Made by a program: the position numbers and the translations under genes
Shown here: positions 13,292-22,435 of the stretch, piece by piece
Layout of the letters: every line of letters starts with the position of its first letter
Numbering within the stretch: position 1 is the stretch's first letter
Source of the DNA: Halobaculum gomorrense
GTDB lineage: Archaea > Halobacteriota > Halobacteria > Halobacteriales > Haloferacaceae
Length of the DNA stretch: 64,000 nucleotides
Assembly (NCBI RefSeq): GCF_900129775.1
Contig: NZ_FQWV01000009.1
Coordinates: forward strand, 29,804-93,803
Direction: 5' to 3'
The notes under the pieces: model-generated
Told to the model about the DNA's origin: nothing
The model's input: the letters and a program-made list of their open reading frames with translations, nothing else
The model's database searches: none

Positions 13292-15283
13292 TCAGGCCAG
13301 CCACTCCTCGGGCGTGGTGTCGTAGTCGACATCGTCGGCGGCGATCTGCTCGGCCAGATCGGGCTCCAGCGCGTGCCGCTCGACCGTCTCTCCGTCGTAG
13401 CGGAGCCGGATCGGCACCTCGTCGCCGCGGGGCTCGCGGCCGCGGCGGCGGGCGACCTCGACCTCGTGGTCGTCGTACTCGGTGACGATCGTCGCGAGGT
13501 TCACCGGCCGTCCCCACAGTTCGAACACACGTTCGAGCGTCCGTTTCGCCTGCTCGATATCGAGCGCGACGCCGTTGTAGCGGTGCCCAAGCAGCAGCTC
13601 GCCCCGGTTGTCGTAGTTGCCGTCGTACACCGCGACGGTCGGCTTCCCGAAGTTGGTGAACCGCAGGAGGAGCTTGCGCTTCACGTCGTCGGGGTCGACG
13701 CTGGCGACCCGGTACTCCTCGGCGGCCTCGGAGTACTCGTAGGTGAAGTAGTTGCCCTCGACGACGAACTCCTCGGTGAGGAACTCGTCGATGAACGTCA
13801 CGTCGTTGTGGCTCTCGCGCACCTCGCGCATGCGCGCCCAGCCGGCACCGTAGTCGACGTCCGCGAGCGCCGATTCCACGTCCGGATACACCTCGTCGTC
13901 GAACATGTACCGGGCGACCCGCTCTAGCTCACCGCGACCGATCCGTTCGAGGAAGCCGCGGTTGGCGGGCTTGGCCAGCGAGAAGTGGCGCTCGCACAGC
14001 CCCTCGTAGGTGAGGACGGCCCACGGGTACGCGTCGGCGTCGAGATCGCCCGCCGTCGCCCGCGCGAGCGCCTCGGCGTCGACGCGGGGGTCCTCGGGGT
14101 CCATGTCATCAAGCGTGTCCCCGGTGACGCCCGCGATCTCCGGGTCCGGTTCGAGTGTCGCCGCGACCTCGTCGAAGTCGATCACGTCGTGGAAGTTGCG
14201 CCACGTGACCCCCTCGACGCGCAGCAGCTTGTCGACGACCTCGCGGCGGTTCGCGCCGTTCTCGACGTACCGCCAGATCTCGAACCCCAGCTTGTAGGGA
14301 TTGAGCCCCGGCGACCCCAGCACCCGCGCCATGTGGTCGGCGTAGGTGACGAACTCGTCGTCGCCCGCGAACCGCTCGTCGCCCATCATCAGCGACTCGA
14401 AGTAACTCGCCCACCCCTCGTTCATCACCTTCGTCATGCGCTGGGGCGCAAAGTAGTACGCCTCCCGGCGTAGGACCTCGATCACCTCGTCCATCCACGG
14501 TTCGCGCTCGACGGCCTTCCCCTCCGACTCGTCGAACCGCGTGCCGTGCTCGCGGAGGTACGCGAGCACGTCCGGGCGCGGCTCGGGCAGGGGCTCGCGG
14601 TCGCGCTGGTCGTCGACCCACTCGGGGTCGAACACCTGGTCGCGCACCTCCGCGGACAGCCCGAGCCGGTCGAGGCGCTCCTCGATGTCCGTCAGTTCCT
14701 CCGCCAGGTCCTCGTCGCCGCCGCGCTCGGCCGCAAGCGCGCGATGCTGGTCGATGGTGTCCTCGACGCACAGCACGGCGTCGATGAGTCGCTCGACGTC
14801 CTCGCGGTCGATCTCGGGGTCCGCCGCGTACCCCGCGATCGTCTCGGCGTGCTGTTCGAGCATCGCGGCGGCGTCCGGGTCCTCGCGGTCGCCGGCGAAG
14901 CGGCCGAACCACTCGTTGTTGCGGAAGAAGTCCGCGTGCGCCTCGACGTGGGTGATGACGGCCTTCTGGTCGGCCGGCGCGTTCGACTCCTGGAGGAACG
15001 CGTGACAGGGGTTGTCGTTGTTGACGATCTCGAACGCCTTCCCCATCCCGAAGGTGTCCTGCTTGCGCTGGCGGTCGTACTTCATCCCCCACCGCCAGTG
15101 CGGGTACCGCGTCTGGAACCCGTCGTAGGCGATGAGCTCGTTCATCTCGTCGTGGGTCACGACCCAGTAGTTCACCGGGTACGGGCGGAGCCCGAGCCTC
15201 TCGGCCAGCTCTCTGGCGCGCTCGGCTGGCTCCGCCAGTTCCGCGGCGACGCGGCGGGTCGCGACTCTGTCGTCATGGATCAT
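13292..15283 (-). CDS. SpoVR family protein
   Basis: 663 residues. SpoVR (E. coli YcgB) is named for Bacillus spore cortex formation, but its biochemical function is unknown. Family hallmarks are visible near the N-terminus: YPVNYWVVTHDEMNELIAY, YPHWRWGMKYDRQRK, KAFEIVNNDNPCHAFLQES and HVEAHADFFRNNEWF. Further on, 'PQRMTKVMNEGWASYFESLM' is a strongly conserved block. The length is longer than many bacterial members (about 470-520 aa), with an extended acidic C-terminal part. It is the last gene of the operon, 4 nt after the DUF444 gene stop, and follows two PrkA-type kinases. Some family members have been suggested to be metal-dependent because of the conserved His residues. Confidence 0.93.
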   Translation of the reverse strand: MIHDDRVATRRVAAELAEPAERARELAERLGLRPYPVNYWVVTHDEMNELIAYDGFQTRYPHWRWGMKYDRQRKQDTFGMGKAFEIVNNDNPCHAFLQESNAPADQKAVITHVEAHADFFRNNEWFGRFAGDREDPDAAAMLEQHAETIAGYAADPEIDREDVERLIDAVLCVEDTIDQHRALAAERGGDEDLAEELTDIEERLDRLGLSAEVRDQVFDPEWVDDQRDREPLPEPRPDVLAYLREHGTRFDESEGKAVEREPWMDEVIEVLRREAYYFAPQRMTKVMNEGWASYFESLMMGDERFAGDDEFVTYADHMARVLGSPGLNPYKLGFEIWRYVENGANRREVVDKLLRVEGVTWRNFHDVIDFDEVAATLEPDPEIAGVTGDTLDDMDPEDPRVDAEALARATAGDLDADAYPWAVLTYEGLCERHFSLAKPANRGFLERIGRGELERVARYMFDDEVYPDVESALADVDYGAGWARMREVRESHNDVTFIDEFLTEEFVVEGNYFTYEYSEAAEEYRVASVDPDDVKRKLLLRFTNFGKPTVAVYDGNYDNRGELLLGHRYNGVALDIEQAKRTLERVFELWGRPVNLATIVTEYDDHEVEVARRRGREPRGDEVPIRLRYDGETVERHALEPDLAEQIAADDVDYDTTPEEWLA

Positions 15284-15287
15284 GAGT

Positions 15288-16622
15288 TCACTCCTCGGTC
15301 CCCTCCGTCGAGAGGATCGTTCGGATCGCGTCGGTCACGTCCTCGGGGCCGCCGACGCGCGCGACGACGACGTCGTCGCGGTCGGCCAGCTCCCGCTCGA
15401 TCTCCTCGGCGTGGGTGGCGTTGATTGTGTTGCCGCCGGGCTGGGTCTCCACGTAGGCGTGGAGGTTCGCCGGGATCTCCCGCATCAGCGGGACGACGTT
15501 CTCGACGGTGTCGTTGCTGGAGTTCTCCGAGTCGCCGGCGGCGAACACGTAGCGGTTCCAGTCGCTGAACGGGTACTCCTCGAGGATCTCGGCGGCCAGC
15601 TCGTAGGCGCTGGAGATGCGCGTGCCCCCGCCCGAGCGGATGCCGAAGAACTCCCCGCGCTCGACCTCCCACGCGTCGGCGTCGTGGGCGACGTAGCGGA
15701 ACTCGGCCTCGTCGTACTTCCCCGTGAGGTACCAGTCCAGCGGCGTGAACGTCCGCTCGACCAGCTCGCGCTTCGTCTTGCGCATCGAGCCGGACACGTC
15801 GCGGATGTTGACGACCACGACGTTCTTCTGTTTCTTTTCGATCACCTCCGGCTGGCGGTAGCGCTCGTCCTCGCGGCGGAACGGCACGTCGCGCAGGCCG
15901 TCCCGCCGGATGCGCGCGCTGACGGGGTCGCGCTCGACGCGCTCGGCGAACTCGTCGAAGGAGGCGTACTCGTCGAGCGAGACGCCCTCCTCGGCGATGT
16001 CGTTCATCGCCTCGCGGACCCACGCCAGCGAGACGAGCACGTTCTCCGCGCGGCAGAACTCGAACACGTCGCGGGCGTCGGCGCCGGCGACGCGGCACGC
16101 CTCCCGGACGTACGCCTCGTCGAAGTCGGTCGCGAGCTTCCGCTTGAGCCCGCGTTTGAACAGCTGCTCGAAGTCGAGCGTGGAGTTCGGGCCCGCGCGC
16201 GTCAGCTCGGTGAAGTCGCCCTCCACCTCCTCGACGACGCGCTTGCCCTTCGGCTCCAGATCCAGTCCCAGCTCCTCGTCGAGCTCCCGGGCGAACTCCT
16301 CGGGGTCCATCTCGTAGTAGCCGTGCTCGCCGCCCTCCTCGCCGGGGTCGCCCTCCTCGTCGCCCTCGCCGTCGGCGTCCCCGGGGTCGCCAGGCACGTC
16401 AACGGGCTGGCCCGGCTCCGGCGTCCCACCGTCGCCCTGGCCGACGCCGCCCATGTCGCGCCTGTCGTACTCGAACGACGGGAGGTCGACGAGCTTCACC
16501 GGGATGCGGACGGCGTCGTGCGAGGAGCCCGAGAGGTCGCCCTCGCGGATGAACTCCGCGAGGTCGGGGCGCCGCTCGTCGCCGATCTCGCGGAACCGTT
16601 CGAGGTCCTCCCTCAGTCCCAT
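15288..16622 (-). CDS. DUF444 (YeaH/YhbH-like) VWA-domain protein
   Basis: 444 residues from ATG 16622. The N-terminal part has [17 protein letters not shown] followed by an Asp/Gly/Glu-rich linker. The second half is a von Willebrand A-like domain with the MIDAS start [16 protein letters not shown] and the [13 protein letters not shown] block. The family-typical SDGDNW loop is replaced by GDSENSSND. YeaH in E. coli is encoded beside the YeaG (PrkA) kinase and YcgB (SpoVR), and the three act together in starvation and stress responses. The start codon overlaps the end of prkA2 by 10 nt, which indicates translational coupling. Function probably as scaffold or adaptor for the kinases (inference). 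Confidence 0.92.
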
Positions 16623-18916
16623 CGGCCGTTCACCTCGCGCATCACGTGTCTGCTGGTCAACTCCGCGGACGCCTCGCTGTACCCCTGTTCGGTGGTCATG
16701 TGCTCGATGGTGCGCTCCTTCACGCGCGCGGTCTCCGTGTTCGCCGGCGGGTCGTCCCACTGCGACGGGTCCAGGTCCTCGTGAATGCGGCGGACGTCCT
16801 CCCACGAGTGGGCCTCCAGCACCGCGCGGATGACGGGGACCGTCGACAGGTCCACGTCGGCGACGCCGAAGTCGTCGTCGCGGTGCTCCCACGCGTAGCG
16901 GTTCAGCGCCGTTATCACGGTGTCCCTGCGGAACGTCTCGACCTCCCCGCCGGGCTCGTTGCCGTGGTAGTCGTCCTCGTCGAACCGGCCGAGGTGCTCG
17001 GTCTCGAACACCTTCATCAACAGCGGGTCCGGATCGACGGCGCCGCGGTCGGTCTCCACCTGCTCGTCGGCGTTCCACGCGAACACGTGCGCGACGTACT
17101 CCTCGACGGTCTCCTCGGCGACGCCCTTGTCCGCGAGCACCGCGTCGAGCACGTCCGCCTCCTGTAGCTCGAACACGTGGTCTTTCACCGTCGCCAGCCG
17201 GTTCTCGTACTCCGCGACCTCCGCGCGCGAGAACACCGGCGCCGCCGACAGCCCCTCGGCCATCGCGTGGAGCACGTCCTCGGGCGTGAGCACGTCCTCG
17301 ACCGGGAGGTCGGGGTGCGCGCGGTCGGTCTCGCCGTGGAGCAGGTCCGCGATCGTGTCGCGGGTGTACGTCACGGGGATCCCGTGGGCGCCGTCGTCGC
17401 CGTCGAAGTCAAACTCGTCTGCGGCGACGCGCTCTTCGCCGTCGCGGACCGCGCCGCGATCGAACAGCAGCGCCTTGTCGACCAGCCCGATCGAGGCGGG
17501 CAGGTCCTCGGCGTCGAGGCGCGTCACGACGGCGTACGTCGCCGCCGCCTCCAGCGCGTGCGGCGCCAGCTCCCGCGTCCGCACCCGTCCGTCGTCGTCG
17601 CGCAGTCGGATCGACAGCGGCGCGGCCATCCGCTCGCGCAGCCGCTCGTGTTCGGTCTCGGGGTCGGCCGCATCGACCGCGGCGGCCCAGACGCCCGTCT
17701 CGTCGGTGAGCTCGCGGTGGATCAGCTCCGTCTCCAGCGAGACGCTGGTGAGGTAGCGGAACTCGTGACGGTCGAGCCGGCGCTTGAGCGCCTTCAGCGG
17801 GTCGCGGTCGTTGCGGTCGGCGAACTGCTCCAGCTCGGCGTCCAGATCCGGGTTCGAGATGACGACCAGCTGCGTGTCCAGGTCCATCCCGATGCCCTTG
17901 TCGAGCTTCACGCGCTTCTCGTCGGGCACGTTCAGCAGCTTCCGCAGCAGGTCTGCGTGCTGGCTGGCGTCCTCGACGACAGTGAGCAGGCCGTTACCTT
18001 GCGAGAGCACGCCGTCGTAGCTGAAGGCGCGAGGATCCTTTCGACCGCGGGCGTCCAGCTCGCGGAGCATCCCCGGCATCCACGAGCCGACGAGCCGCTC
18101 CTTCGGCGAGCCGTCGTCCTCAGCGTGGAGGACGCCGATCCCCTTGCCCACATCGACGACGTAGTTCTTCACCCGCAGGTGCCGGCGGTCGGTCACCGCC
18201 GAGAACAGGTCGCGGCGGCCGGTCCGGCGGTAGCGCTCCTCCAGGATATCGAACGCCTCGCGGCTGAACGGGTCGAGATCCGACTCCGCCCGGATCGGGA
18301 TGTGGTCGTCGTGTTCCGCGTTTAGCGCGTCGACGAGGTCGGCGCGTACCTCCGGGGGGAACACCGACAGCGGGTTCGCTTGCACCGGCGACTCGTACCA
18401 GTCGTCGTCCGCGTCGTCGTCGGGGGCGTAGCTGAGGCTCCGCTCGTCGTCGCGGGCGGCGATGTTCCACTCGACGGTGTAGCGCCGTCCCGCCTCGGTC
18501 TTCGAGTACGCGCGCAGCCCGTTGATCAGACAGCGCTTCAGCTCCGATTTCCCGGTCGCGGTCGGCCCGTCGAACCAGTGGATCTTCTCTTCTTTCCCGC
18601 GCCCGGCCGCGACGGTGCGGAGGTCGTCGACGAAGGCGTTGAGCACGCCGGTGTTGCCGAGGACGGCGTGCTCGCCGTCGTTCGCTGGGTCGTCGAAAAA
18701 GCGGTAGCGCTGGCGCTCGACGCCCTCCTCGACGACGGTTCGGGTGCCCATCGATTCGATCGCCGACAGCACGTACCTGGCGGCGTGGCTGGCGACCGCC
18801 GGGCGCTCGAACGCCAAGTCAACGAACTCCGCGAGCGACCGCGGCGGCTCGTAGGCGCCCTCGAGCGCCTCGTCCGCGCGCGCAAGGTAGTCCGTTGAGT
18901 CGGTGGTGTCGGTCAT
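16613..18916 (-). CDS. PrkA-family serine protein kinase, second copy
   Basis: 767 residues from ATG 18916. The N-terminal AAA-type module has Walker A GPTATGKS (about 117-124), differing from the usual GPVGxGKS. A segment [23 protein letters not shown] matches the PrkA block near the AAA second region, and the C-terminal half is the PrkA-specific region. PrkA (YeaG) proteins are AAA-containing serine kinases, some reported to have protease activity. This copy is clearly diverged from the first copy, which starts upstream and ends 1 nt before it, so they are paralogues and not a recent duplication. A specialised or partner role in a hetero-oligomer is inferred. Confidence 0.88.
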
Positions 18917-18917
18917 C

Positions 18918-21032
18918 TCAGTCCTCAAGCTCGCTTTTGGCGACCTCCGCGCCGGCGAACTCCAGCACCTCACGGGCGCCCTCAGCGGAGTAGCCCTGCT
19001 CGGTCAGGGCGTCGACCCACGCGGCACGCTCGTCGTCGTCGAGCTCCCCGGCCGACACCAACGCGGAGAAGTTGATGTTGTGCTTCTTGTCTTCCCACAG
19101 CTTCCGCTCGAGGGCGCGGCGCAGGCGGTCGTTCTCCTGGGGGTCGAAGCTCGACCCCTCGCGGGCGCGGCGGCTGACCCAGTTGGCGACCTCCTGGCGG
19201 AAGTCGTCCTTGCGGTCGCCGGGCACCTCCAGCTTCTCCTCGACCGACCGGAGGAACGTCTCGTCGGGCTCCTGCTCGCGCCCGGTGAGGTCGTCCTCGA
19301 CGGTCGTGTCGTCGATGTACGCCATCACGTGGTCCATGTACTTCTCGCCCTGCCGCCGGATCTCGTCCACGTCGTACGCGAGCGCGTGGCGCACGTCCTC
19401 GATGGCGCGCTCTTTGTACTCCTCGCGGACGAGCTCAAGGTAGCGGTGGTAGGTGTCGAGCTTCTCCTCCGGGATCGACCCGTGGTTCTCCAGATTTCCC
19501 TCGAAGTGCTTGAACACCGCCAGCGGCGACAGGTAGCCGCGGCCGCGGTGCCGGGAGTCCATGATCGCCTCGGCGATCTCGTCGCCGATGAACCGGGCGG
19601 AGACGCCCTCCATCCCCTCGGCGATGTCGGCCGCACGGTCGCCGTTCTCCCTGAGCTTGCGCTCGTCGATCTCGTCGGTCTCGTCGATCTCGCCGTTGTA
19701 CGCCTTCGCCTTCTGGACGAGCGAGACGGACTCGTCGGTCGGCTCCTCGACGCGGGTGAGCACGCCGAACAGGCCGGCCATCTCCATGGCGTGGGGCTCG
19801 ATGTGGATGTCGGGCACGTCGGCGTTGCGCAGCATCTTCCGGTAGATCTCCGCCTCCTGCTCGTACTCGAGGACGTACGGGTAGTCGATCCGCTTGGTGC
19901 GGTCGTTGAACGCCTCCATCTTCTCGTCGCCCTTCTTGTCCCGGTACTCGGGCATGTTCGTCCGGCCGACGATCACCTGGTCGATGTCGATCCGCGGGTT
20001 GTTGCGCGGCTTGATCGTCTGCTCCTGGCTGGCGTGCAGGAAGTCGTAGAGGAACTCCCGCTGGAGCTTCAACAGCTCCTCGCCCGAGAAGATGCCGCGG
20101 TTGGCGTTGCAGAACGCGCCCGCGTAGTCGAACGCCCGCGGGTCGTTCTCCCCGTACACCGCGAGCTTCGAGTAGTTGACATCGCCGGTGAGCTCCGTCT
20201 CGTCCTGATTCTTCTTATCTTTCGGCTCGAACGTCTCGATGCAGCGTCGCTGGTTCTCGTCGGCGACGAGGCGGATCACCTCGACGTGGTTCTCCAACAC
20301 CGCCTGGAGGTCGTCCTCGTAGTGGGCGAGGAGTTCGTCCATGTAGAAGCCCGACGCCGGATCGAGGCTCTGCTCGTTGCGGATCGTGTACGGCGCGTCG
20401 AGCCGCTCGTTCAGGTCGGCGATCACCTCGTCGCGCTGTTCCTGCGGGAGCAAGACAATCGGGTCCTGGTTCATCGCCGACCGGACCGTGTCGTCGCCCG
20501 GGTCCTGGTCCTCGATGACCGAGCAGAGGTCGGTCCACCGGAAGGTGTACATCCGGCCTTCGTCGCTGCGGGTGTAGTCCTCGAAGTAGCGCCGGACGAG
20601 CCAGTCGAAGTGGCTCTTGCCGGAGCCGACGGGGCCGAGCAGGAGCTTGATGCGCTTTTCGGGACCCAGCCCGCGCGCGCCCGACTTCACCTTGTTGACG
20701 AACTCGTGGATGGACTCGTGGACCTCTCGGCCGTAGAAGGCGTTCTCGCCGTCGTGGAGTGGGTCTTCCGACGCGAGGAAGTACTCCACGACCCCGGCGT
20801 CCTCGTCGTAGCGCGTGCCGTAGTGGTCGAACATGTCGGCGACGCGCTGGTGGGCGTTGCGCGCGACGCGCGGGTCGGACACCAGTTCTTCGAGGTACCA
20901 CTCGAAAGACTTGGCTTCCCGGAGGTCAGCCGGGACGGACCGCTCGTACTCCCGGCTGAGCTCCGCGAGCGTGTGCGTCCTCGATGCCTCCCCCGGCGTG
21001 GGGCTGGTCGCGTTGTCGGTCTGATCACTCAT
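18918..21032 (-). CDS. prkA: PrkA-family serine protein kinase, first copy
   Basis: 704 residues from ATG 21032 (MSDQTDNATSPTPGEASRTH). Walker A is LLLGPVGSGKSHFDW (about 131-145). The block FDYAGAFCNANRGIFSGEELLKLQREF and VGRTNMPEYRDKK match canonical PrkA/YeaG sequences, and the C-terminal kinase-like region is complete. It is the first gene of the operon prkA1-prkA2-DUF444-spoVR. A longer frame opens at 21155, but its extra 41 residues lack haloarchaeal coding character, so 21032 is preferred. The 200-plus nt upstream hold TATA-like elements and a palindrome. Confidence 0.93.
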   Translation of the reverse strand: MSDQTDNATSPTPGEASRTHTLAELSREYERSVPADLREAKSFEWYLEELVSDPRVARNAHQRVADMFDHYGTRYDEDAGVVEYFLASEDPLHDGENAFYGREVHESIHEFVNKVKSGARGLGPEKRIKLLLGPVGSGKSHFDWLVRRYFEDYTRSDEGRMYTFRWTDLCSVIEDQDPGDDTVRSAMNQDPIVLLPQEQRDEVIADLNERLDAPYTIRNEQSLDPASGFYMDELLAHYEDDLQAVLENHVEVIRLVADENQRRCIETFEPKDKKNQDETELTGDVNYSKLAVYGENDPRAFDYAGAFCNANRGIFSGEELLKLQREFLYDFLHASQEQTIKPRNNPRIDIDQVIVGRTNMPEYRDKKGDEKMEAFNDRTKRIDYPYVLEYEQEAEIYRKMLRNADVPDIHIEPHAMEMAGLFGVLTRVEEPTDESVSLVQKAKAYNGEIDETDEIDERKLRENGDRAADIAEGMEGVSARFIGDEIAEAIMDSRHRGRGYLSPLAVFKHFEGNLENHGSIPEEKLDTYHRYLELVREEYKERAIEDVRHALAYDVDEIRRQGEKYMDHVMAYIDDTTVEDDLTGREQEPDETFLRSVEEKLEVPGDRKDDFRQEVANWVSRRAREGSSFDPQENDRLRRALERKLWEDKKHNINFSALVSAGELDDDERAAWVDALTEQGYSAEGAREVLEFAGAEVAKSELED

Positions 21033-21454
21033 GTGTGGGGCCACGTGTGCGGGGACGACCGCGAACGGTCCCGCTGTGCAGGCACCCGGCGTCGGTTCCG
21101 ACGCCCGCCCCATCGGAGCCGACTCAAGCGCCGCTGGACCGTCATGGCTACTCATACCACGCGACCGCGTGTGACCGGCGCTGCTCGTCTCCTACAGAAC
21201 TCGTCGTGAGGGCGGCCGGTGGGGGTCGTTGCCTCCGTCCCGTGGTGGACCGAGACTATATGTTGTGGTGGGTGTTAACACACATAAACCTGTCGGCAAA
21301 TGACACCGGTACCGTCACGCCCTCGATCGGTTCGGGATCGCGCCGAGACGCGGAATACCGTTTTCACAGCCACGAACGCGGCGGATCCCCCGCACGCGGC
21401 GACGGTCGGTGCGCCGAGCGTGGTGCCTAAGCCGTCCGGCCGACAAGGGCCGCT
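21033..21454. other. 422-bp intergenic region upstream of the prkA operon
   Basis: No convincing gene. The left part is ordinary GC-rich sequence. An AT-richer core at about 21250-21300 holds TATA-like elements readable in both directions (ACATATAG and GTTTATG on the minus strand, ACTATATG on the plus strand) and the palindrome GTGTTAACAC. This is the likely control region of the prkA operon, and possibly also of the divergent gene at 21455, whose nearer candidate element is GTTTTC near 21360. Confidence 0.5.
21272..21281. promoter_or_regulatory. 10-bp palindrome GTGTTAACAC in the prkA operon upstream region
   Basis: A perfect palindrome in the only AT-rich core of the intergenic region, next to TATA-like sequences for the minus-strand operon. 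It could be an operator for a dimeric regulator. Evidence is positional only. Confidence 0.4.
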
Positions 21455-21862
21455 ATGACCGACGAGTCCGCAGGCGAATTGCCCGAAGACACGCTCGGCG
21501 AGGGGTGGCGGCTGTGGACCGAAGAGCCGAACGGCCGGGCGATCGTCGTGTACCGACCGGACGTGTTCGACGCCGACCGGTTCCCCGCGCCGTGTCTCCC
21601 CACGGTGTACCTCACCGACGGCTCGCGCCGCGCGCGGCCGGGCGCCGGCCAGCGGCGGACCGACGAGTGGCACGTGACGCTGTTTCTCGAACCGGAGGTG
21701 GAGGGAGCGTCCGCGACGTTCGACGACCGCGCGGCCGCGCTCGACGGCGTCGTCGACGTGACCGAGCGGTTCGCCGGCGGCGAGATCGACTACCGCGGCG
21801 CCTATCAGGTACCGCGCGAGGCGTACCTCGACAAACTCGACGACCTGACCGGCAGAGAGTGA
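21455..21862 (+). CDS. conserved haloarchaeal protein of unknown function (135 aa)
   Basis: 135 residues from ATG 21455 (MTDESAGELPEDTLGEGW). The sequence has acidic haloarchaeal composition, central strands GRAIVVYRPDVF, PTVYLTDGS and EWHVTLFLEPEVEG, then a helix and a C-terminal YLDKLDDLTGRE. No catalytic motif or Cys cluster is seen. The mixed alpha/beta pattern suggests a small soluble domain. It resembles haloarchaea-restricted hypothetical proteins (possibly the DUF5820 group, not verified). It is divergent from the prkA operon and 118 bp before the UPF0179 gene. Confidence 0.75.
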   Translation: MTDESAGELPEDTLGEGWRLWTEEPNGRAIVVYRPDVFDADRFPAPCLPTVYLTDGSRRARPGAGQRRTDEWHVTLFLEPEVEGASATFDDRAAALDGVVDVTERFAGGEIDYRGAYQVPREAYLDKLDDLTGRE

Positions 21863-21979: not shown

Positions 21980-22435
21980 ATGTCCACCGTCACCCTCATC
22001 GGAACGCGCCTCGCGGAGGCAGGAACCGAGTTCGTCTATCAGGGCGAGGCCAGCGCCTGCGAGGGCTGCCCGTACCGCGCCCAGTGCCTCAACCTTGAGG
22101 AGGGGCGCCGCTACCGCGTCACCGACGTGCGCGACGGGACGCAGGCGCTCGACTGCGCTGTCCACGCCGACGAGAGCGTCCGCGCGGTCGAGGTGGAGCC
22201 GGCGGCTGTCACCGCGAACGTCGCCTCGCGGGGCGCGTACGCCGGATCGCGGGCGTCGCTGGAGGGACCGTGTCCGCACGTCGACTGCCCGAGCCACGAG
22301 CTGTGCGAGCCGCTGGGCGCTGAGTTCGACGAGGAGTACCGCATCGCCGAGGTCGACGGCGACCCGCCCCACGAAGTGTGTCACCTGGGCCGCGACCTGA
22401 CGACGGTGACGTTCGAGCCCGAGGACGGGGCGTAA
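21980..22435 (+). CDS. UPF0179 family protein
   Basis: 151 residues. The family signature is visible: VTLIGTRLAEAGTEFVYQG, then CEGCPYRAQCLNL, which is a Cys-rich cluster (C-x2-C-x5-C), then GRRYRVTDVR, and a second cluster CPHVDCPSHELCEPLG. UPF0179 is an archaeal family of unknown function. The two Cys clusters, plus a further Cys in VCHLG near the end, could bind Zn or an Fe-S cluster. Start at ATG 21980. It is convergent with the next gene, with only 29 bp between. Confidence 0.9.
   Translation: MSTVTLIGTRLAEAGTEFVYQGEASACEGCPYRAQCLNLEEGRRYRVTDVRDGTQALDCAVHADESVRAVEVEPAAVTANVASRGAYAGSRASLEGPCPHVDCPSHELCEPLGAEFDEEYRIAEVDGDPPHEVCHLGRDLTTVTFEPEDGA

Follow-up and report, generated by a model that had tools for sequence, protein, structure and literature searches.

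The DNA considered here is a stretch of 64,000 nucleotides (nt) from the haloarchaeon Halobaculum gomorrense (RefSeq assembly GCF_900129775.1, contig NZ_FQWV01000009.1, positions 29,804 to 93,803), referred to at its full length as the window, and the system in question is a block of four genes on its minus strand (13292-21032) encoding, head to tail, PrkA1, PrkA2, a DUF444 protein and SpoVR. Intergenic spacings are 1 nt (prkA1/prkA2), -10 nt (prkA2/DUF444) and 4 nt (DUF444/SpoVR), exactly as a previous sequence-only reading had given them, and Pfam confirms the families that it had named. The families PrkA, YeaH/YhbH and SpoVR/YcgB occur widely and belong to stress responses and sporulation; the cloning of PrkA was reported in 1996. 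The locus is a real and strictly inherited two-motor variant of this known module. Its features are collected in Table 1.

Table 1. Features of the four-gene block in the window.
Feature	Position	Strand	Basis or remark
PrkA1, canonical PrkA-family AAA+ ATPase, 704 aa	18918..21032	-	PF08298 and PF06798; 451.8 bits against PDB 9xip
PrkA1 P-loop GPVGSGKS, residues 133-140	20613..20636	-	64/64 haloarchaeal PrkA1
PrkA2, diverged PrkA-family AAA+ ATPase, 767 aa	16613..18916	-	PF06798 and PF08298; 118.6 bits against PDB 9xip
PrkA2 P-loop GPTATGKS, residues 117-124	18545..18568	-	64/64 PrkA2, invariant variant
PrkA2 acidic insertion, about residues 152-172	18401..18463	-	Variable across species
DUF444 (YeaH/YhbH) VWA-domain protein, 444 aa	15288..16622	-	PF04285; predicted VWA fold
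DUF444 metal-ion-dependent adhesion site (MIDAS) motif DVSGS, residues 275-279; further ligands T334, D364	15786..15800	-	Row conservation
SpoVR (YcgB) family protein, 663 aa, predicted client or effector	13292..15283	-	PF04293 and PF24755
SpoVR HxxxH motif, H112-H116, HVEAH	14936..14950	-	Both His in 182/182 rows
SpoVR NEGWA motif, residues 288-292	14408..14422	-	Inteins directly after the motif in relatives
Promoter-like block 5' of prkA1: TTTATGTG (21288-21281) and TAGTCTCGG (21258-21250)	21250..21288	-	Alignment; prediction

All four proteins score above the Pfam cut-offs, which are 25 bits for both PrkA models, 27 for DUF444, 27 for SpoVR and 27.6 for SpoVR_C (PF24755). PrkA1 reaches 202.6 bits with AAA_PrkA (PF08298) and 241.2 with the PrkA C-terminal model (PF06798), PrkA2 40.3 and 93.4 bits with the same two models, the DUF444 protein 337.9 bits (PF04285), and SpoVR 253.4 (PF04293) and 36.1 bits (SpoVR_C). 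At E <= 0.001 the only Pfam matches of PrkA1 and PrkA2 are to PrkA models, with none to the MoxR family. The alignment of PrkA1 with PDB 9xip ('Serine protein kinase') covers residues 41-699. The closest relatives of PrkA2 are from Halobaculum, with 92% identity to the protein of Halobaculum sp. EA56.

The cluster itself, and its restriction to haloarchaea among the archaea, have been known since 2011: the relevant passage of Anderson et al. (PMC3102087) describes a pair of PrkA genes side by side, together with DUF444 and SpoVR, as the signature shared by every haloarchaeal genome compared, and reports the same four-gene cluster in no other archaea. New here are its inheritance across 242 genomes, the divergence and active-site state of the second copy, the MIDAS and the SpoVR motif. 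In family searches of 242 Halobacteria genomes, the PrkA C-terminal domain was found in 211 and not in 31, and there were two per positive genome, never one, among the matches listed; the DUF444 and SpoVR families were likewise each found in 211. Carriers and non-carriers agree across the three lists when compared by eye, and 11 of the 31 negatives occur in none of them. The four-gene set is thus all-or-none in these genomes. Within four genera (g2, g8, g10 and g23) both carriers and non-carriers occur, a partial set never, and because these genera hold both states the block must have been lost or gained as a whole more than once. Haloferax volcanii, taken as a control genome, has all three families. 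With PrkA2 as query, 48 of 59 genomes were positive, each with one PrkA2-type and one PrkA1-type match. A search of 295 genomes of the phylum gave 49 above the PrkA family cut-off, all from the window's own taxonomic order; outside that order no genome reached it, and 19 others gave weak, sub-cut-off matches. On a small plasmid of Haloarcula sp. JP-L23 there are unannotated fragments of a broken prkA1 (L130, 9629-10297).

Gene order is as constant as gene content. In 63 loci, taken from carriers of 57 genera, the order PrkA1-PrkA2-DUF444-SpoVR and the single strand are kept in every case, so that with the window (64 rows in all) they are never altered, a constancy well above anything expected by chance; in one locus (L068) the DUF444 gene is frameshifted and the order is intact. 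The median gap between prkA1 and prkA2 is 1 nt. In 51 of the 64 rows prkA2 and the DUF444 gene overlap by 10 nt precisely, and across the 57 intein-free rows the median distance from DUF444 to SpoVR is -4 nt. The sequence-only reading had proposed a four-gene unit and a shared function, and had suggested a survey of co-occurrence and order across archaeal genomes; these counts support the proposal.

PrkA1 and PrkA2 of the same genome share a mean identity of only 23%, and the divergence that the sequence-only reading had seen in their two P-loops is confirmed, both motifs being as quoted there. Across genera the mean pairwise identity is 84% for PrkA1, 71% for PrkA2 and 68% for SpoVR, and PrkA1 keeps 75, and PrkA2 50, of the 94 columns that are conserved among 86 PrkA proteins from bacteria and viruses. 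In a tree of 58 rows each copy forms one clade, with long branches and a root position that is not fixed. Five residues of PrkA2 (K123, S124, E315, N355 and R380) are invariant in 64/64 rows, and each of these columns is kept in at least 90% of the 64 PrkA1 and at least 90% of the 86 other PrkA proteins; from general AAA+ architecture, and not from a structure, we take them to be the P-loop Lys and Ser, the Walker-B Glu, the sensor-1 Asn and the Arg finger. In a further 174 columns PrkA2 is near-invariant and the commonest residue of PrkA1 is a different one; K272, K375 and R379 of PrkA2 are copy-specific in this way. Some of these columns reverse charge, and two flank the Arg finger in the sequence (E373 to K375 and D377 to R379); the reversals on either side suggest that the subunit interface of PrkA2 is altered relative to PrkA1. 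The acidic insertion noted in the sequence-only reading is present, but its length and acid content differ between species, the enclosing stretch (residues 150-178) measuring 22-35 aa in 64 PrkA2 proteins, with acidic residues making up a fraction of 0.14-0.34. One PrkA2 gene (G026:C1:1476023-1478413) has about 38 additional codons past residue 413, with the frame open.

Two other accounts of the second copy have to be weighed against these data. PrkA2 might be a decaying or passive duplicate riding on a working three-gene module, and its Pfam scores are indeed below those of PrkA1 and it evolves faster. However, neither active-site loss nor decay of copy 2 was found: the catalytic set is complete in 64/64 rows, none of the genomes searched has PrkA1 alone, the divergence of SpoVR is equally large, and prkA2 is among the 25 most expressed genes listed for a natural winter population of Haloquadratum (PMC9684190, in the part concerned). 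A relic is therefore very improbable, and PrkA2 is better seen as a specialised partner because its ATP-site residues and GPTATGKS are invariant and it carries so many copy-specific columns. Alternatively, the two proteins could be separate homo-oligomeric ATPases of one pathway, PrkA1 as the ancestral motor acting on DUF444, and PrkA2 serving another step or client or restraining PrkA1. Their low mutual identity, the unequal retention of family-wide columns, the full ATPase site in both copies and the oligomers that B. anthracis PrkA forms on ATP (reported in PMC13001217) would all agree with this. Against it, prkA1 and prkA2 are never apart in 242 genomes and are adjacent and coupled, and the two charge reversals around the Arg finger are such as an altered subunit interface could give. 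Separate ATPases are possible, if rather unlikely.

The sequence-only reading spoke of two kinases. A kinase pair that phosphorylates proteins, with DUF444 as adaptor and SpoVR as phosphorylated effector, would fit the family name, the PrkA C-terminal domain of both copies and the in vitro kinase activity of YeaG, as cited in the E. coli report (PMC4664914). In the same source, yeaG, yeaH and double mutants share one phenotype, and YeaG variants K116A (Walker-A), R232A, K426A (the proposed kinase lysine) and a stop at Y382 do not complement, the last two of these counting in favour of a kinase. The K116 position is invariant in all 214 PrkA rows. By contrast, at the K426 position Asp stands in 64/64 PrkA1 and 64/64 PrkA2 (128/128 haloarchaeal rows), and of the 86 other PrkA proteins just 6 have Lys there. 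As the R232 position is not conserved either, failure to complement in E. coli cannot by itself tell which residues are key across the family. The sections of the B. anthracis report that bear on the question (PMC13001217) describe a PrkA with no kinase activity or autophosphorylation detected, no protease activity once pure, and a C-terminal domain that lacks a kinase P-loop. On balance the evidence speaks for an AAA+ function and makes the poorly supported kinase reading less likely; the word 'kinases' is doubtful for this locus, and a phosphorylating pair is improbable.

The DUF444 protein, which the sequence-only reading had taken for a VWA protein, bears this out in its predicted fold and its residues. 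D275, S277, T334 and D364 are present in 213/213 rows and S279 in 212/213, which gives the VWA domain a complete MIDAS (DxSxS, T, D), and chain G of NorQD is among the structural matches of the predicted fold. In SpoVR, H112 and H116 are kept in 182/182 rows and E289, G290 and A292 (NEGxA) in 182/182 insertion-free rows. Insertions stand directly after NEGWA or NEGWS in seven haloarchaeal loci, and after NEGHA in one viral locus. The invariant HxxxH and NEGxA motifs, with inteins adjoining the latter, suggest a metal site; no earlier proposal of such a site was found in the open-licence literature. Gluzincin metallopeptidases (clan MA, M1/M2 like) have the motifs HExxH...NExxA. SpoVR has the Glu of the NExxA type, which would be the third metal ligand (E289, 182/182), but the catalytic Glu of HExxH is absent, its place (position 113) being taken by V, A or C in 182/182 rows. 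An ATP-dependent protease, in which a PrkA ring unfolds, DUF444 selects and SpoVR cleaves as a gluzincin-type peptidase, could explain the resemblance of HxxxH...NEGxA to the peptidase motifs and the place of zinc peptidases as best structural neighbours of SpoVR on a second look. The missing glutamate, the weakness of that fold match and the lack of protease activity reported for pure B. anthracis PrkA (in the sections cited above) make it quite improbable.

Several observations on SpoVR stand apart from this. Position 114 (window 14942-14944), the Glu of HVEAH, is invariant in 57/57 haloarchaeal proteins, but neither the viral nor the bacterial rows have Glu among their four most frequent residues there; it would be a lineage-specific change within the predicted metal site. 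Viral insertions occur at two sites, after NEGxA (L198) and about 22 residues before HxxxH (L188, L196, L197 and L209), and the three scanned (L196, L198 and L209) match LAGLIDADG and intein models. Four haloarchaeal SpoVR proteins (P0153, P0155, P0179 and P0217) are labelled 'AbrB family transcriptional regulator' by UniRef or NCBI, likely a misannotation.

The reading preferred here, to which we give a probability of about one half, is that the haloarchaeal PrkA-DUF444-SpoVR module is a remodelling machine powered by ATP, with PrkA1 and PrkA2 acting jointly, through DUF444 as VWA adaptor, on SpoVR as a predicted metalloprotein. The two PrkA proteins would share one AAA+ ring or complex as two motor subunits; DUF444 would dock on the ring and hold SpoVR through its MIDAS; and ATP hydrolysis would open SpoVR or load its metal, by analogy with the iron loading of nitric oxide reductase by NorQ-NorD. 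Like its bacterial homologues, the unit may act in starvation, osmotic stress or stationary phase. A more specific version is doubtful as a whole: SpoVR would be a metalloprotein with a peptidase fold but no catalytic glutamate, and an obligate mixed PrkA1-PrkA2 ring would drive the MIDAS adaptor to supply it with metal; haloarchaea would survive growth arrest by this means, and phages would carry a single-motor version.

Expression data come from both domains, each from the parts of the reports that concern these genes. In R. etli the three-gene operon was confirmed by reverse transcription PCR and is upregulated on growth arrest, but a prkA mutant is described as growing without defect on the nitrogen sources that were tried (PMC3188799). 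E. coli yeaGH has a role under nitrogen starvation (PMC4664914), and prkA of B. anthracis is induced 13-fold by 1 M NaCl, its loss impairing growth under osmotic stress (PMC13001217). For haloarchaea, besides the Haloquadratum list, a clone of H. volcanii with parts of SpoVR and a neighbour shows lower translation in exponential than in stationary phase (PMC3225822), and spoVR is up 5-fold on deletion of brz in Halobacterium (PMC2253796). These data fit a growth-arrest or stress role and do not prove it. A search of the open-licence literature found no functional study of the haloarchaeal PrkA-PrkA-DUF444-SpoVR genes.

Upstream of prkA1, the element TAG(T/C)CTCGG of the promoter-like block is kept in 8 of 10 aligned rows (the window and nine loci of the same family), and transcription is predicted to start near 21257, which would give a leader of about 225 nt. 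The neighbours on this side are divergent genes for DUF5820 (21455-21862) and UPF0179 (21980-22435); within flanks of about 2 kb, the former is divergent and upstream of the module in 55/64 loci and the latter is found in 47/64.

The haloarchaeal version offers two handles on these proteins. It is an all-or-none unit in tractable, non-pathogenic hosts, and the copy-specific residues of its second ATPase may show where the working interface lies. In SpoVR the inteins are an independent marker of the invariant motif, which supplies three residues for mutation. Should SpoVR indeed be a metalloprotein that an AAA+/VWA motor activates, a family now classed as kinases would join the machines of metal insertion and remodelling.

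Among known systems, the cluster of Anderson et al. is the closest, with the same four genes and two adjacent PrkA; their passage deals with presence and adjacency only. The bacterial modules (R. etli, E. coli yeaGH with ycgB, and PrkA/YhbH/SpoVR of B. subtilis) share the three families, which stand in the same order in 62 of 80 bacterial loci with one PrkA only, whereas in haloarchaea PrkA2 is placed between PrkA1 and DUF444; in E. coli, moreover, ycgB is located elsewhere, apart from yeaGH. The structures 9xip, 9xiq and 9xir hold one PrkA sequence of 692 aa, in 30 chains across the three entries. Phage-borne modules also have a single PrkA. At least 301 stretches of viral contigs encode PrkA, and among the 80 loci kept (L131-L210; some contigs may be bacterial) 68 have PrkA, DUF444 and SpoVR in order, which makes the single-motor module a frequent one on viral contigs; of the 12 that lack one or two genes, eight end soon after PrkA and four (L132-L135) continue without them. 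The flanks of the 80 viral and 80 bacterial loci, many of them cut short by contig ends, showed no second PrkA. The huge phage LR756511 has all three genes, and Ralstonia phage RsoM2USA is reported to encode SpoVR and PrkA (PMC8504454, in the part concerned). In Thermus phage phiYS40 (L128, 1-4813), a 616-aa protein that matches no Pfam model stands between SpoVR and PrkA, and it may be an adaptor, not recognised as such, that replaces DUF444. Finally, NorQ-NorD and other MoxR AAA+/VWA pairs (PMC13036017) combine an AAA+ ATPase, a VWA partner with a DxSxS-T-D MIDAS and a metalloprotein client. The haloarchaeal locus likewise encodes a VWA partner with a complete MIDAS beside its ATPase; it differs in having two ATPases and no MoxR match in Pfam, and SpoVR would take the place of the client.

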